Made by a program: the position numbers and the translations under genes. From an uncultured Bacteroidota bacterium (GTDB lineage Bacteria > Bacteroidota > Bacteroidia > 2-12-FULL-35-15): a DNA stretch of 64,000 nucleotides. Under the pieces are notes generated by a model that worked only from the letters and a program-made list of their open reading frames with translations, ran no database searches and was not told where the DNA came from. Positions 32,204-37,152 of the stretch are shown piece after piece (positions within the stretch are counted from its first letter, which is position 1; each line of letters opens with the position of its first letter). The stretch spans positions 1 through 64,000 of the forward strand of contig CAINDA010000063.1 of the NCBI GenBank assembly GCA_903847205.1, written 5' to 3'.

Positions 32204-32502
32204 AATTTAAATTTTGCTTAAAGGTAGTAAAATACTAAATTATTCAGCAGTGATTTTGGTCATATACAGAAGGGGCCGCGGAAATATCCTTTTAATGCAA
32301 TTAATCTTCAATGTTTCTGTCACCGTCCATCGTCAAAGGAGATGGCTGTGATAAGCTGATGCTTGTTGACTTAATGCTTAAGCTTTATGAAGGGAAAGAA
32401 AGATTTAAACCGATACGCCCGGCAGAACAAAATAATTTGGACACAGGATTATAACTTTAATTAACTTTTAATTTAAAAAACAATATTATACATTTGCCCC
32501 GC
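32204..32502 (+). other. Divergent intergenic region with a 47-codon open frame
   Basis: An ATG-to-TAA frame at 32311-32454 encodes a 47-aa hydrophilic peptide with LVDLMLKLYEGKERFKPIRP. Its codon use looks protein-like and it may be the remnant of the C-terminus of a larger gene, but I cannot name it. TACATTTG at 32489-32496 is an exact -7-type box only 7 nt before the next start codon, suggesting a nearly leaderless transcript. Confidence 0.4.
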
Positions 32503-32829
32503 ATGTTAAAGCTGATAAAAAAATATTGTTCCATTTTTTTTCTCCTTCTCTTTCTTTTCCCGGCGGCAGAGAAAGAATTTCATGCATACAAACATATCGG
32601 CGAAAGCCATTGTAATGAAAGGGCTGCGAAACATTTCCATGAAGCAGAGCACCACTGTTCTATCTGCGATTTTACAAGTACTGACTCAAACACTCCTGCC
32701 AAATCACAATATACAGCGGTAATTGCTGTTTCAAATTCTTTTTATAATCCTTTTGCTGAAAGTGTAAATACTCCAAATGCCTTTCAAAATTTACCTTCCA
32801 GAGCTCCTCCAATAGTTTTGTCTGCTTAA
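32503..32829 (+). CDS. Small His/Cys-rich membrane-anchored or exported protein, copy 1
   Basis: I place the start at ATG 32503; the TTG at 32494 belongs to the promoter-like TACATTTG. The 108-aa product opens with a hydrophobic segment (SIFFLLLFLFPAAEK), then a metal-ligand-rich stretch GESHCNERAAKHFHEAEHHCSICDF, and ends ESVNTPNAFQNLPSRAPP. A paralog with the same ligand pattern lies at 35541-35891, on the other side of the TonB receptor. The pattern resembles small Bacteroidota proteins found near copper or zinc receptors. I infer periplasmic or membrane-attached metal binding; the metal is not determinable. Confidence 0.75.
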   Translation: MLKLIKKYCSIFFLLLFLFPAAEKEFHAYKHIGESHCNERAAKHFHEAEHHCSICDFTSTDSNTPAKSQYTAVIAVSNSFYNPFAESVNTPNAFQNLPSRAPPIVLSA

Positions 32830-33020
32830 TTAATCCGTATTGTTTTAATTAATAATTCTATTTCAATACCTCTTGCCTCTTCGTAGAGTTATTCAATTTA
32901 TCAAATAAAATTAAAATGTTTCCCGCAAAGGATCATTGACGCAGATTAGAGCAATGTTTATTTTTATGTTTTTTCTGTAGCTTAATGTCTTTGCCGGAAA
33001 TAAATCTTAAAGAGATTATC

Positions 33021-35495
33021 ATGAGAAAAATAATTTATACTTTTTCTGTCATATTTTTTATAGTAATAAGTTCAGTTGCGGCTTCAAATGACCATGGTCC
33101 AAAGACTATCCTCACTGGAAAAGTAACTGATAAAGAAACGGGCGAAACATTGCCTGGCGTTACCTTGTATATCCCCGATTTAAAAACGGGGGCGGTTTCT
33201 GCTATTGACGGTACCTACAAGATAATAAATCTGCCTGCACGAAAAGTTTTGCTGCAGATAAGTCTGATAGGCTACAAAACAATGCTGGTAACAATTGATT
33301 TATCAAAGACAGTAGCAAAAGATTTTGCTTTAGAAAGTTCAATCAAAGAAATAAATGAAGTTGTTGTTACGGGTACTTCAAAAGCTACTGAAATAAGGAT
33401 GAGCCCGGTTCCTATTGCTGTTATTGACAGCAAACATCTACAGGAAAATCTAAGCTCTAATGTTATTGATGCAATTGCGAAATTACCCGGTGTTAACACC
33501 GTAACAACCGGGCCGAATGTTTCCAAACCCTTTATCCGCGGGCTGGGCTACAACCGCATCCTTACTTTGAATGACGGCGTAAGGCAAGAAGGACAGCAGT
33601 GGGGTGATGAACATGGAATTGAAGTGGACGGATTTTCTATTGCCAGAATAGAAGTTGTAAAAGGGCCGGCCAGCCTTATTTACGGTTCGGATGCTTTAGC
33701 CGGCGTAGTAAACTTAATACCCGAACCGCCAGTGACTGAAGGTGTGATGAAAGGAAGTTTTTTGTCGAACTACCAAAGCAATAACGGACTGCTGGCTTAC
33801 TCCGCAGCCATTGCTGCAAATAATAACGGATTTATCTGGGGAGGAAGACTGTCGGATAAAGAAGCAACAAATTATCAAAATAAAATTGACGGAAGGGTTT
33901 ACGGCACATCTTTTAAAGAGAAGGATGCTGATGTGTATATAGGGCTGAACAAGGAATGGGGATATTCCCACCTAAAGTTTTCGGTGTTTGATGATCTGCA
34001 GAGCATACCTGACGGCAGCCGGGATTCGGTTTCCAGAAAATTTACAAAGCAGATTAGTGAAGCGGATACGCTGCGCCCAATTGTATCAGATGCGGATTTG
34101 AAAACTTATACAATCCCTGTATTACATCAGTATGTGCAGCATTACAAAATTGTTTCATCAAATAATTTTATTATCGGCAACGGTAAATTAGGATTAAATT
34201 TAGGATACCAGCAGAATATCCGCAGAGAATTCAGCCACCCTGAAAACCCTGATATTGCAGGTTTATATCTTGTCCTTAAATCTTATACGTATGATTTAAA
34301 ATACCATTTTCCAGAAAAAAACGGCTGGGAATCAACCATTGGGTTAAATGGGATGTACCAGACAAATGCCAATATGGGCAGCGAGTTTATTATTCCTGAT
34401 TATAATTTATTTGACATCGGCCCTTTTGCATTTGTTAAAAAAACATTTAAAAAGCTGGATGTAAGTGCTGGGTTGCGCTATGATACACGGTCGTTTAAGA
34501 ATGACGGTATGTACACCAAAAAAGATCCGCAGACAGGATTTGAAATGCAGACTTCTGATACCGCCGGGGCCGTTCATCCTTTTACAGCCTACAGCCATAG
34601 CTTTTCAGGCGCTTCAGGAAGCTTTGGCGCAACTTACAGCCTGTCGGATAATTTCTTTCTGAAAGCCAATATTGCAAGAGGATACAGAGCACCTAATATT
34701 TCAGAAATTTCAGCAAACGGTGTTCATCCCGGAACAAATATTTACCAGATAGGCAATCCTGATTTTAAATCTGAATTAAGCCTGCAGGAGGATGTCGGTG
34801 TATTTTATTCCGCGAAACATATAACTGTAGAAGCAGATGTTTTTGATAATACTATTTCAAATTATATTTATAATGCGAAGGTTTTGAACGGCAAAGGACT
34901 TGATTCTATTATTGTTCCGGGTAACCAGACCTTCCAATTTCAGGCAGCGCAGGCACAGATTTACGGCGGTGAGTTGAGCATTGATATTCATCCTCATCCT
35001 CATCCTTTAGACTGGCTGCATTTTGAAAATTCAATTTCGATATTGTATGCGCTAAATAAAGGTGTTAACGGCGGTGCCCCGATAACAGACAGCACTAAAT
35101 ACCTGCCCTTTATACCGCCGATGCACACACATTCAGAATTAAGGGCGGACTTTAAAAAGAAGTTCAAACATTTTTCTTCGCTTTATGCGAAAGTGGAAAT
35201 GGAATATTATGCTGAGCAGAACAGGGCGTATTTAGCATATAATACAGAAACTGTTACACCCGGCTATACCTTATTTAATGCAGGAATCGGTGCTGATGTG
35301 ATTAACAAAGCCGGTAAAACTATTGCCAGTATTCATGTTTTAGGAAATAATATTACTGACGCTGCTTATCAATCACACTTGAGCAGGTTAAAATATTTTG
35401 AAGAATATCCTAATAACGGAAGCAGTCATAGCGGTATTTACAATATGGGACGGAATATCAGCTTTAAACTGCTGATACCGCTTGAATTTAAATAA
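33021..35495 (+). CDS. TonB-dependent outer-membrane receptor
   Basis: I choose ATG 33021 (MRKIIYTFSVIFFIVISSVAAS) because it gives a proper signal peptide; the start at 32985 adds 12 polar residues. The mature protein has a carboxypeptidase-like beta-sandwich (TGKVTDKETGETLPGVTLYIP, about 30-110), a plug domain (about 120-235, with GVNTVTTGPNVSKPFIRGLGYNRIL and VEVVKGPASLIYGSDALAGVVNLI) and a beta-barrel to the C-terminus (824 aa in all). An IDIHPHPHPLDWLHFENS loop is histidine-rich. Flanking His/Cys-rich small proteins suggest a metal or metallophore as substrate. Confidence 0.93.
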   Translation: MRKIIYTFSVIFFIVISSVAASNDHGPKTILTGKVTDKETGETLPGVTLYIPDLKTGAVSAIDGTYKIINLPARKVLLQISLIGYKTMLVTIDLSKTVAKDFALESSIKEINEVVVTGTSKATEIRMSPVPIAVIDSKHLQENLSSNVIDAIAKLPGVNTVTTGPNVSKPFIRGLGYNRILTLNDGVRQEGQQWGDEHGIEVDGFSIARIEVVKGPASLIYGSDALAGVVNLIPEPPVTEGVMKGSFLSNYQSNNGLLAYSAAIAANNNGFIWGGRLSDKEATNYQNKIDGRVYGTSFKEKDADVYIGLNKEWGYSHLKFSVFDDLQSIPDGSRDSVSRKFTKQISEADTLRPIVSDADLKTYTIPVLHQYVQHYKIVSSNNFIIGNGKLGLNLGYQQNIRREFSHPENPDIAGLYLVLKSYTYDLKYHFPEKNGWESTIGLNGMYQTNANMGSEFIIPDYNLFDIGPFAFVKKTFKKLDVSAGLRYDTRSFKNDGMYTKKDPQTGFEMQTSDTAGAVHPFTAYSHSFSGASGSFGATYSLSDNFFLKANIARGYRAPNISEISANGVHPGTNIYQIGNPDFKSELSLQEDVGVFYSAKHITVEADVFDNTISNYIYNAKVLNGKGLDSIIVPGNQTFQFQAAQAQIYGGELSIDIHPHPHPLDWLHFENSISILYALNKGVNGGAPITDSTKYLPFIPPMHTHSELRADFKKKFKHFSSLYAKVEMEYYAEQNRAYLAYNTETVTPGYTLFNAGIGADVINKAGKTIASIHVLGNNITDAAYQSHLSRLKYFEEYPNNGSSHSGIYNMGRNISFKLLIPLEFK

Positions 35496-35540
35496 TAACA
35501 AAAGCGCAGGATGAAAAAATAATTTATCCTGCCAGACGAA

Positions 35541-35891
35541 ATGCAAAGACAATTAAAAAAATACAGTTCGATTTTTGTTCTCCTTCTTTTCCTGTTACCT
35601 ATGGCAGAGAAGGCAAAGCACGACTTTGCACACACCTTAGATACCCATTGTACAACAGGGAGTAAACACTTCCATAATTTAGAACACAATTGCGCGCTCT
35701 GTGATTTTTCAATTAATGATACTCATTTTCCAGTCGATGCATCAACTCAATTTGTAATACTTCTCAACGGGATTTCATTTAATTCAGTTACTGAAAGTGT
35801 AAATATTCCAAATGCTTTTCAGGATATTCCTTCAAGGGGGCCACCAGCTTTACACTTGCCTCAGACATTCATTCAAATATTAACCACATAG
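35541..35891 (+). CDS. Small His/Cys-rich membrane-anchored or exported protein, copy 2
   Basis: A 116-aa paralog of the protein at 32503. Shared features in order: KKY-SIF-LLLFL-P-AEK at the N-terminus, HC, KHFH, EHNCALCDF and ESVNIPNAFQDIPSRGPP. Sequence between the motifs has diverged, so the duplication is old and the ligand pattern has been kept. It follows the TonB receptor by 45 nt and is probably co-transcribed with it. The last codons run into the left arm of a 113-bp inverted-repeat element, which supplies the stop codon. Confidence 0.75.
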   Translation: MQRQLKKYSSIFVLLLFLLPMAEKAKHDFAHTLDTHCTTGSKHFHNLEHNCALCDFSINDTHFPVDASTQFVILLNGISFNSVTESVNIPNAFQDIPSRGPPALHLPQTFIQILTT

Positions 35892-35993
35892 AAACATAGG
35901 TAAAAAGAGATTTATACAAGATTTTTTTATACAGCTATGTTATAGGCTCTATCTATTCTTTTATAACTTTTTATCTATGTTTCTATGTGGTTA
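35881..35993. repeat. 113-bp element with 27-bp terminal inverted repeats
   Basis: The two ends (35881-35907 and 35967-35993) are inverted copies with a single mismatch. The outer part reads TAACCACATAGAAACATAG. The 59-bp middle is A+T-rich and non-coding. The left arm contains the TAG stop of the preceding gene. The size and structure fit a miniature inverted-repeat element or a large hairpin. Confidence 0.8.
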
Positions 35994-36034
35994 GAAGTAT
36001 AAACAATAAACAACCCATTCTAAAACTTAAAAAT

Positions 36035-36889
36035 ATGAAATCTATAAAACTACTAGCATTTACAGCCTTACTGCTGGGTTCTTGCAGAGCAAGTTCTGCA
36101 AATATTATTTCGGATGGAAGCTCCATCATTTTAAATGCTGATAAATCAAAAATCGCTGTGCCAGAAATAAAAACTGATGATGTTAAACCGCAATCTGGAA
36201 AAGTGCGCGGTTACGGCATCTCATTCGGAGGAGGCACTATTTTAATTCCTTCTGGTAATTTTGATATGCTGAACCAGCACCTGACAAAAAATAATTATGC
36301 TGCAGTTCCTTTACAATACACAACCTGGAATATGAGGATGATACATGCCATATATAAAAACACTGTTTTTAATATGGATTTCGGCGGTATCCTTCAAAAA
36401 AATACTGTGACTGATTCATCTAAAACAACCATGACAGGTTCCTCTTTTAACCTTGCATTGGGAAAAGTTATTTATCATGGAAATAAACTGATTATATATC
36501 CCATGGCAGGAGTTGATTTTGGCAGTTTTAATCTGCATTCGCATTTTACCGGTGCAGACAAAGCAAGCGATATCTCTGGAGATAATGTTTACCGCTCTTT
36601 TGATTTTTCGTTGAACATAGATTATCTCTTTCACGGCTTTGATGAAAAAGTCGACTGGAATGCTTCAAGTAAAGCATTTCCGATACACGGCACGGGATTA
36701 TTATCATTTACAATCGGCTATGTTTACTGCCCTTCAAACACTTATTGGAACGACAGCAATTACGATATATCCAGCAGGTTTAACACCAATGTTAATTACC
36801 CGGCTAATGTAATCGGCAGCACAACATCTTCTAATTTTTCAATGCTTTATGCAAGCTTGAAAATTGGGTTTGGTTCGTTTTATAAATAA
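36035..36889 (+). CDS. Exported or lipid-anchored protein, probable outer-membrane barrel
   Basis: From ATG 36035 the protein starts MKSIKLLAFTALLLGSCRASSA, a signal peptide with a possible lipobox at LGSC; a 16-residue upstream extension from 35987 would mask it. The mature part (about 265 aa) has alternating hydrophobic strands and many aromatic/Gly residues (GYGISFGGGTILIPSGNF, HAIYKNTVFNMDFGGIL, LIIYPMAGVDFGSF, FSMLYASLKIGFGSFYK), consistent with a small barrel ending in an aromatic-rich strand. I do not recognise the family. It follows the TonB receptor and His/Cys proteins and may belong to the same system. Confidence 0.65.
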   Translation: MKSIKLLAFTALLLGSCRASSANIISDGSSIILNADKSKIAVPEIKTDDVKPQSGKVRGYGISFGGGTILIPSGNFDMLNQHLTKNNYAAVPLQYTTWNMRMIHAIYKNTVFNMDFGGILQKNTVTDSSKTTMTGSSFNLALGKVIYHGNKLIIYPMAGVDFGSFNLHSHFTGADKASDISGDNVYRSFDFSLNIDYLFHGFDEKVDWNASSKAFPIHGTGLLSFTIGYVYCPSNTYWNDSNYDISSRFNTNVNYPANVIGSTTSSNFSMLYASLKIGFGSFYK

Positions 36890-36897
36890 TATGGCAA

Positions 36898-37143
36898 TAT
36901 TTAAGCTTGAAGCTGTTCCTAAAGTCCTACGAAGGCAGTATTTAAGTTTGAACGTGTCCGTAAAGTGCTACGAAGACAATATTTAAGTGTGAACGTGTCT
37001 GTAAAGTCCTACGGAGGCAATATTTAAGTGTGAGCCTGTTCGTAAAGTACTACGAAGACAATATTTAAATGTGAACCTGTTCGTAAAGTACGGCGGTAGC
37101 AGTATTTAAGTGTGAACTTACTCATAGACTTCTATGAAGGCAA
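36898..37143 (+). repeat. Six 41-bp tandem repeats, each with a hairpin
   Basis: TATTTAAG-type unit starts fall at 36898, 36939, 36980, 37021, 37062 and 37103, exactly 41 bp apart. Each unit holds an inverted repeat; the clearest is TTCGTAAAGTACTACGAA (37039-37056). Units 3 and 6 carry paired changes that keep the stem. The period is not a multiple of three and no frame crosses it. The array lies between a barrel gene and a terminator, so it is probably transcribed as a 3' untranslated region. Confidence 0.9.
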
Positions 37144-37152
37144 TGTCAATAC

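Follow-up and report, generated by a model that had tools for sequence, protein, structure and literature searches.

Putative metal-sensing arrest leaders, most likely for zinc, flank a TonB receptor gene in an uncultured Bacteroidota bacterium

RESULTS

Two small open reading frames flank a TonB receptor gene

The stretch of DNA analyzed here (the window; 64,000 nucleotides [nt], contig CAINDA010000063.1 of GenBank assembly GCA_903847205.1) comes from an uncultured Bacteroidota bacterium. Between positions 32503 and 36889 it carries genes for a TonB-dependent receptor and a barrel-like exported protein, and two small open reading frames (ORFs), one on either side of the receptor gene, whose products are rich in histidine and cysteine. 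We consider it likely, with a probability of about 0.72, that each small ORF is a cis-acting leader and encodes an arrest peptide that senses metal on behalf of the next gene, leader 1 for the receptor and leader 2 for the barrel-like protein. A first-pass annotation had recognized two paralogous small proteins flanking the receptor, which we confirmed as ORFs 32503 to 32829 and 35541 to 35891, and had proposed that the mature proteins capture or deliver metal. That proposal was not supported: a C-terminal R[AG]PP motif, a 44-residue linker that is fixed in length and free in sequence, the upstream position, and pairing between the leader stop and the next start point instead to leaders acting in cis. 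In anatomy, position, and spacing, both match arrest leaders of the CruR and CutF kind. The features of the locus are as follows (aa, amino acids; MITE, miniature inverted-repeat transposable element).

32489 to 32496, + strand: Bacteroidota-type -7 promoter element TAcaTTTG, 6 nt 5' of the leader 1 ATG
32503 to 32829, + strand: leader 1 (upstream ORF 1, uORF1), 108 aa, with signal sequence or anchor, His/Cys metal head, 44-aa linker, RAPP, and 5-aa tail
32656 to 32667, + strand: CSIC motif of leader 1 (C52, C55), from alignment A1
32800 to 32811, + strand: RAPP codons of leader 1, the predicted ribosome-arrest site, read from the sequence; the motif arrests in CruR and others (PMC12992588, PMC9426467)
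32816 to 32837, + strand: predicted 5' arm spanning the leader 1 stop codon, duplex with 32930 to 32951
32930 to 32951, + strand: candidate 3' arm, 70 to 91 nt 5' of the receptor ATG at 33021, duplex with 32816 to 32837
33021 to 35495, + strand: TonB-dependent receptor, ZnuD-like, with the ZnuD zinc ligands conserved (E197, H198, E403, H569)
35541 to 35891, + strand: leader 2 (uORF2), 116 aa, architecture as leader 1, with RGPP and a 14-aa tail; lacks its own -7 element
35835 to 35846, + strand: RGPP codons of leader 2, read from the sequence
35881 to 35907, + strand: 5' arm of a MITE-like, interspersed 27-bp inverted repeat that begins at the stop codon of leader 2
35967 to 35993, + strand: 3' arm of the 27-bp inverted repeat, from the fold, ~41 nt before the next start
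36035 to 36889, + strand: barrel-like exported protein, ~300 aa, no family match; probable target of leader 2

The start of the receptor is better set at 33021 (MRKII..., a signal peptide), and that of the barrel-like protein at 36035 (MKSIK...LLGSC). The latter protein had a single homolog (in genome G019) among 35 congeneric genomes, showed no relation to the OMP250 partner family, and gave an AlphaFold model with no usable fold (predicted local distance difference test [pLDDT] score, 31). Immediately 3' of its gene lies a noncoding tandem array (36893 to 37144) of ~5.5 copies of a 41-bp unit with 83% matches.

The small proteins form a family with a conserved head, a length-fixed linker, and a terminal R[AG]PP

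Leaders 1 and 2 are truly paralogous (48% identity, E = 7e-29). Another paralog, the third, L033, lies on contig C45 of the same 5.49-Mb genome (50% identity, E = 2e-25), 800 nt 5' of another TonB receptor gene, with one small gene between. That gene encodes a 182-aa membrane protein whose long coiled coil is rich in His and Met (HxxM repeats); a counterpart occurs at locus L037. Relatives of the leaders were found in 30 of the 36 genomes of the genus and, across the class, in 68 of the 395 genomes sampled; most database matches were to Bacteroidetes/Bacteroidia, and PHROGs and phage records gave no match.

The first-pass annotation had described an ordered set of maintained ligands, and this was borne out. 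An alignment of 13 diverse relatives (A1) contained 16 invariant columns, which places the set HxxxH...HC...KHFH..EHxCxxC above chance. These columns include H27, H31, H36, C37, H44, H46, E49, H50, C52, and C55, as well as R100, P102, and P103, and all fall within the signal core, the His/Cys head, or RxPP.

Family statistics were drawn from 90 non-redundant relatives whose listing demanded CxxC and RxPP. R[AG]PP was present in 88, and the tail beyond it was 2 to 3 residues long in 77. The linker from CxxC to RxPP measured 44 residues in 66 relatives, as in both window leaders, 45 in 13, 43 in 10, and 41 in 1, whereas pairwise identity fell from 59% in the head to 13% in the linker (7% when shuffled). 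Judged from these alignments, the linker is conserved in length and not in sequence. Because the listing criteria could bias the selection, nine divergent matches that had been left out were read by hand; all end in R[AG]PP, 46 to 48 residues past the first Cys, and all have lost the second Cys of CxxC. The shared tail ESVNxPNAFQxxPSRxPP of the first-pass annotation thus stands in part: R[AG]PP at the extreme C terminus is kept in relatives, whereas the likeness in ESVNxPNAFQ reflects recent paralogy only, since that stretch is hypervariable in relatives (13% identity).

The leader stop region is complementary to the stretch before its own downstream start

Leaders sit ~40 to 230 nt upstream of the next gene, and no known RNA family in Rfam matched this region. 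When the sequence from leader stop to next start was folded, the last codons and stop of the leader paired just 5' of the next ATG at many loci, with a pairing sequence that differed from locus to locus. In a swap test, the stop region paired with its own -40 to 0 segment at -7.4 kcal/mol, compared with -5.3 kcal/mol for segments from other loci, and none of 20,000 permutations did as well (z = -7.3 for -40 to 0; z = -8.2 for -30 to 0). For controls that used other parts of these leaders, or the start of the gene, z lay between -2.3 and 0.2; since these came from the same genomes, shared base composition does not explain the pairing. Pairing peaked with the 5' arm at -10 to +6 about the stop codon and the 3' arm at -20 to -6 before the start, and contiguous stop/start helices occurred in 31 of 63 loci compared with 9.2 expected. 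Ribosomes of Bacteroidota make little use of Shine-Dalgarno pairing. The fixed tail length would be explained by such a helix, because a ribosome stalled on RxPP 2 to 3 residues from the end would cover the 5' arm. The locus-specific complementarity, which is evident at the sequence level, supports a switch.

A promoter signal was likewise shared. Of 89 relatives, 58 had a TAnnTTTG that ended 3 to 14 nt ahead of the leader ATG (1.5 expected), so close that leader transcripts would be near-leaderless. Leader 2, which has no such element of its own, is probably read through from the receptor gene. At leader 1, the stop region formed a duplex with 32930 to 32951 of -15.0 kcal/mol (p = 0.007 against shuffles), and the inverted repeat behind leader 2 gave a fold z of -7.7. 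Both window leaders deviate from the family pattern, so that the switch is best displayed by the relatives, and leader 2 may be altered. The MITE-like inverted repeat AACCACATAGAAACATAG spans 35881 to 35993 of the window, with inverted copies elsewhere in the genome (G000 C49:27394-27505 and C61:19819-19876).

Neighboring genes and the receptor point to zinc

The first-pass annotation had called the region a candidate metal-handling locus, and the conserved His/Cys ligands together with the co-occurrence of TonB receptors in many genomes agree with this. The neighborhood search it had called for returned a TonB receptor as the next gene for 68 of the 90 leaders and one or two genes further on for 4, a total of 72. 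The remaining next genes were an OMP380-ZnuA-ZnuB set (8), a receptor-partner lipoprotein (4), a ZigA-type GTPase (2), the window's barrel-like gene (1), no recognizable target (1), or the contig end (2). One of the divergent matches, L178, is a third leader preceding a ZigA-type GTPase. The GTPase scored 540 bits against the model for the zinc chaperone ZigA (cut-off, 600), with the next model at 165, and the solute-binding protein found its best matches among zinc-binding ZnuA proteins, whose three His it keeps. No ZnuA-family gene was found in the window's own genome, so the link to the ATP-binding cassette (ABC) importer comes from relatives only. OMP380 proteins (e.g., at L050, L161, and L165) are outer-membrane-like, 380 aa long, end in GSHGAHTY or GAHQY, precede ZnuA/ZnuB, and had no informative Pfam match; they are candidate zinc porins. 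At L050, ~3.2 kb past the leader and after ZnuB, there is also a small Cys-rich protein (HYC...CC..K...RIHAPPD) with HAPP close to its end; it may represent yet another arrest-leader family, distinct from this one, beside zinc genes.

The receptor was compared with ZnuD, the Neisseria zinc TonB receptor, in which zinc is held by Asp99, His100, Glu340, and His499 (PMC4557270). Of 71 linked receptors, including that of the window, 68 have an acidic residue (E/D) aligned with Asp99, 70 have His aligned with His100, 69 have Glu aligned with Glu340, and 66 have His aligned with His499; the Glu340 equivalent was assigned by barrel-strand position and not from a printed alignment, and is the weakest of the four. 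The closest unlinked receptor paralog seen in the genome has Phe in place of His100. The AlphaFold model of the receptor (pLDDT, 83) supports the alignment: against 1,000 chains, ZnuD was the best match (Z = 37.8, root mean square deviation of 2.1, 586 residues aligned). The receptor differs from ZnuD in being only ~18% identical, in carrying an extra CarbopepD_reg domain, and in scoring far below the cut-off of the NCBIfam ZnuD model NF038289 (84 bits versus 950), so that it would work like ZnuD and not be a member of that family. The HPHPHP loop singled out by the first-pass annotation is present, but is particular to the window receptor; relatives retain only part of it.

The same annotation had left the metal as copper, zinc, or nickel. 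The neighboring genes, the conservation of ZnuD ligands, and the fold match favor zinc, which is most likely the metal sensed; copper and nickel appear less likely. The perfect palindrome AATGATTATAATCATT, which resembles a Fur/Zur box, precedes the ATG of the third leader by ~74 nt (L033, contig C45). A shared Zur/Fur box was considered and discarded, as the clean palindrome occurs at L033 only and no common palindrome was found 5' of other leaders.

Bracketing recurs outside the window

The first-pass annotation knew of no other bracketed duplication, yet the arrangement recurs. In L135, from another family of the class, the order is leader, receptor, leader, lipoprotein, and outer membrane protein (OMP), with both leaders intact. 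L136 and L037 show a similar but less clear bracket, the second leader of L037 belonging to a divergent subfamily; this RAPP leader (L037:7146-7517; HHHH...CMLCEF, linker of 43) lies between the TonB receptor and its lipoprotein/OMP partners. Bracketing is thus not unique to the window, being clear in one unrelated genus, and its natural reading is one leader per gated downstream segment.

DISCUSSION

Proposed mechanism

Starting from the observed architecture, its conservation, the genomic linkage, and the locus-specific complementarity, we propose the following. Translation of the leader, on a short and near-leaderless transcript, would expose its signal sequence. Under scarcity of the metal, which is most likely zinc, translation would stall once the final Pro codon of R[AG]PP occupies the A site, and the stalled ribosome would cover the last two codons and the stop, which form the 5' arm of the helix. 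The helix would otherwise pair 8 to 16 nt 5' of the next start; the stall would keep that start open, and the uptake gene would be expressed. When metal is present, it would bind the His/Cys head, ~44 to 48 residues from the peptidyl-transferase center and just outside the exit tunnel. As the head folds, it would pull the chain and relieve the stall, the helix would form, and expression would drop. The transcript and the covering of the 5' arm have sequence-level support; by analogy with CruR we infer the stall at R[AG]PP, and we likewise infer which metal is sensed and which way expression responds.

Several points weigh against this proposal. Most RAPP-like sequences of two proteomes failed to stall in vitro (PMC10987492). 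The helix is found in about half of the loci and is not universal. At leader 1 the 3' arm is farther from the ATG than in most relatives and the helix is absent from the minimum-energy fold, while at leader 2 the inverted repeat is an interspersed repeat element and, because of the 14-aa tail, lies outside the footprint of a stalled ribosome. The DUF2946 family of Pfam (PF11162) matched leader 1 at E = 0.0035 and 18.5 bits, below the gathering score of 23.7; the profile did not match leader 2, and it matched 3 of 13 relatives at E <= 0.05. The zinc assignment derives from neighbors and ligand homology, and the second-ranked fold for the receptor was the copper transporter OprC (Z = 35.2).

Alternative explanations

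Were the mature small proteins to act in the envelope as metal chaperones or scavengers supplying the receptor, their export signal, conserved His/Cys ligands, and receptor neighbors would be accounted for. We regard this as very improbable, mainly because the linker is sequence-free and length-fixed, with only R[AG]PP conserved past the His/Cys head, and because the stop codon pairs in cis within an RNA helix that involves the next start. Members of the family also stand next to genes for ABC importers and for a cytosolic GTPase, and the CruR protein was undetected and is thought to be degraded (PMC9426467). The same leader mechanism sensing copper, as a Bacteroidota branch of CruR/CutF proper, is possible and agrees with the CxxC and RAPP architecture and spacing, with surveys that tie most Cys-bearing CutF-like members to copper, and with the rank of OprC, but it strikes us as improbable. 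No copper gene was recognized next to any of the 90 leaders, where ZnuAB and ZigA genes stand instead; linked receptors retain the ZnuD ligand quartet; the second Cys of CxxC is dispensable in divergent members; and copper-related RAPP leaders are reported to be lacking in Bacteroidota (PMC12992588).

The stalled ribosome could instead block Rho or an intrinsic terminator, as for CruR and bfrG (PMC9426467), so that transcription is attenuated and no start codon is freed. The intergenic regions are indeed structured (mean z of -1.8) and somewhat richer in C than in G (0.17 versus 0.12). We nevertheless judge attenuation unlikely, as the 3' arm peaks 6 to 20 nt before the start, the site expected for initiation control, and no consistent terminator was seen in the folds by eye. 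For window leader 2 alone, decay or repurposing of a functionless duplicate is somewhat unlikely: it has no promoter of its own, a repeat inserted behind it, a long tail, and a rare target gene, but it retains every ligand, the 44-aa linker, and RGPP, and the bracket of L135 has an intact second leader in an unrelated genus.

Returning to metal-sensing leaders that act in cis, we hold at even odds the broader proposal that a zinc-responsive arrest-leader family controls zinc uptake in Bacteroidota (TonB receptor, ZnuAB, ZigA) through a conserved stop/start helix, with some operons carrying two leaders in series that separately gate receptor and partner genes by one metal. To our knowledge, the zinc control otherwise described in bacteria acts on transcription (Zur and the like). 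No zinc arrest leader was found in the open-access literature, apart from supplements, and the main text of two surveys makes no mention of zinc. Copper arrest switches are known; a zinc-linked branch in Bacteroidota appears not to have been reported. If real, it would extend the metal-sensing arrest principle beyond copper to a second metal as an mRNA switch, give a function to many small Bacteroidota proteins that lack annotation, and yield a rule for finding metal-uptake genes: HxxxH..HC..H.H..HxC, 44 residues, R[AG]PP, stop.

Comparison with known arrest leaders

CruR of Bordetella pertussis is a DUF2946 leader that controls a TonB receptor through metal-relieved arrest, with CxxC and a C-terminal RAPP 45 residues apart, a distance kept to within 1 to 2 residues (PMC9426467). 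In vitro, it arrests with the codons of the third and fourth motif residues in the P and A sites, and RAPP and RGPP are both experimentally verified arrest motifs (PMC12992588). Like CruR, which lies upstream of bfrG/crtA, the leaders described here are small, exported, and directly before a TonB receptor. Both window leaders have CxxC (C52 to C55), as do nearly all relatives; the C-terminal motif is RAPP in leader 1 and RGPP, of the same arrest-motif class, in leader 2; and the spacing is 44 in both (43 to 45 in 89 of 90). They differ in their richer, partly Cys-independent His/Cys head, in zinc-type neighbors (none of the 90 has a next gene recognized as copper-related), in a Pfam score below the cut-off, in having a stop-codon/start-codon helix rather than a mapped Rho site, and in the presence of a pair of leaders within one operon.

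CutF-like leaders have been surveyed previously, many of them in Bacteroidota and many preceding TonB genes, by rules that call for fewer than 150 aa, an export signal, PP within the last 15 residues, and a next gene on the same strand within 1,000 nt (PMC9973294). Leader 1 fits these rules (its signal judged by eye), and leader 2 falls narrowly outside the 15-residue rule, with PP at residues 101 to 102 of 116. CutF, upstream of cutO in Rhodobacter capsulatus, is likewise a nascent exported metal sensor with a C-terminal Pro motif and an RNA structure over the next initiation site. There, copper turns a copper-protection gene on, whereas here uptake genes would be expected to be on without metal, the helix starts within the last codons of the leader, and the motif is R[AG]PP. 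SecM-secA and the RAPP-type ApdA and ApdP share the C-terminal arrest motif but monitor protein export, where the present leaders would monitor a metal. For SecM, the stalled ribosome is proposed to open a helix covering the next start. Taken together, these likenesses and differences suggest that the leaders are a zinc-linked, helix-coupled, and sometimes doubled form of the CruR/CutF arrest leaders.

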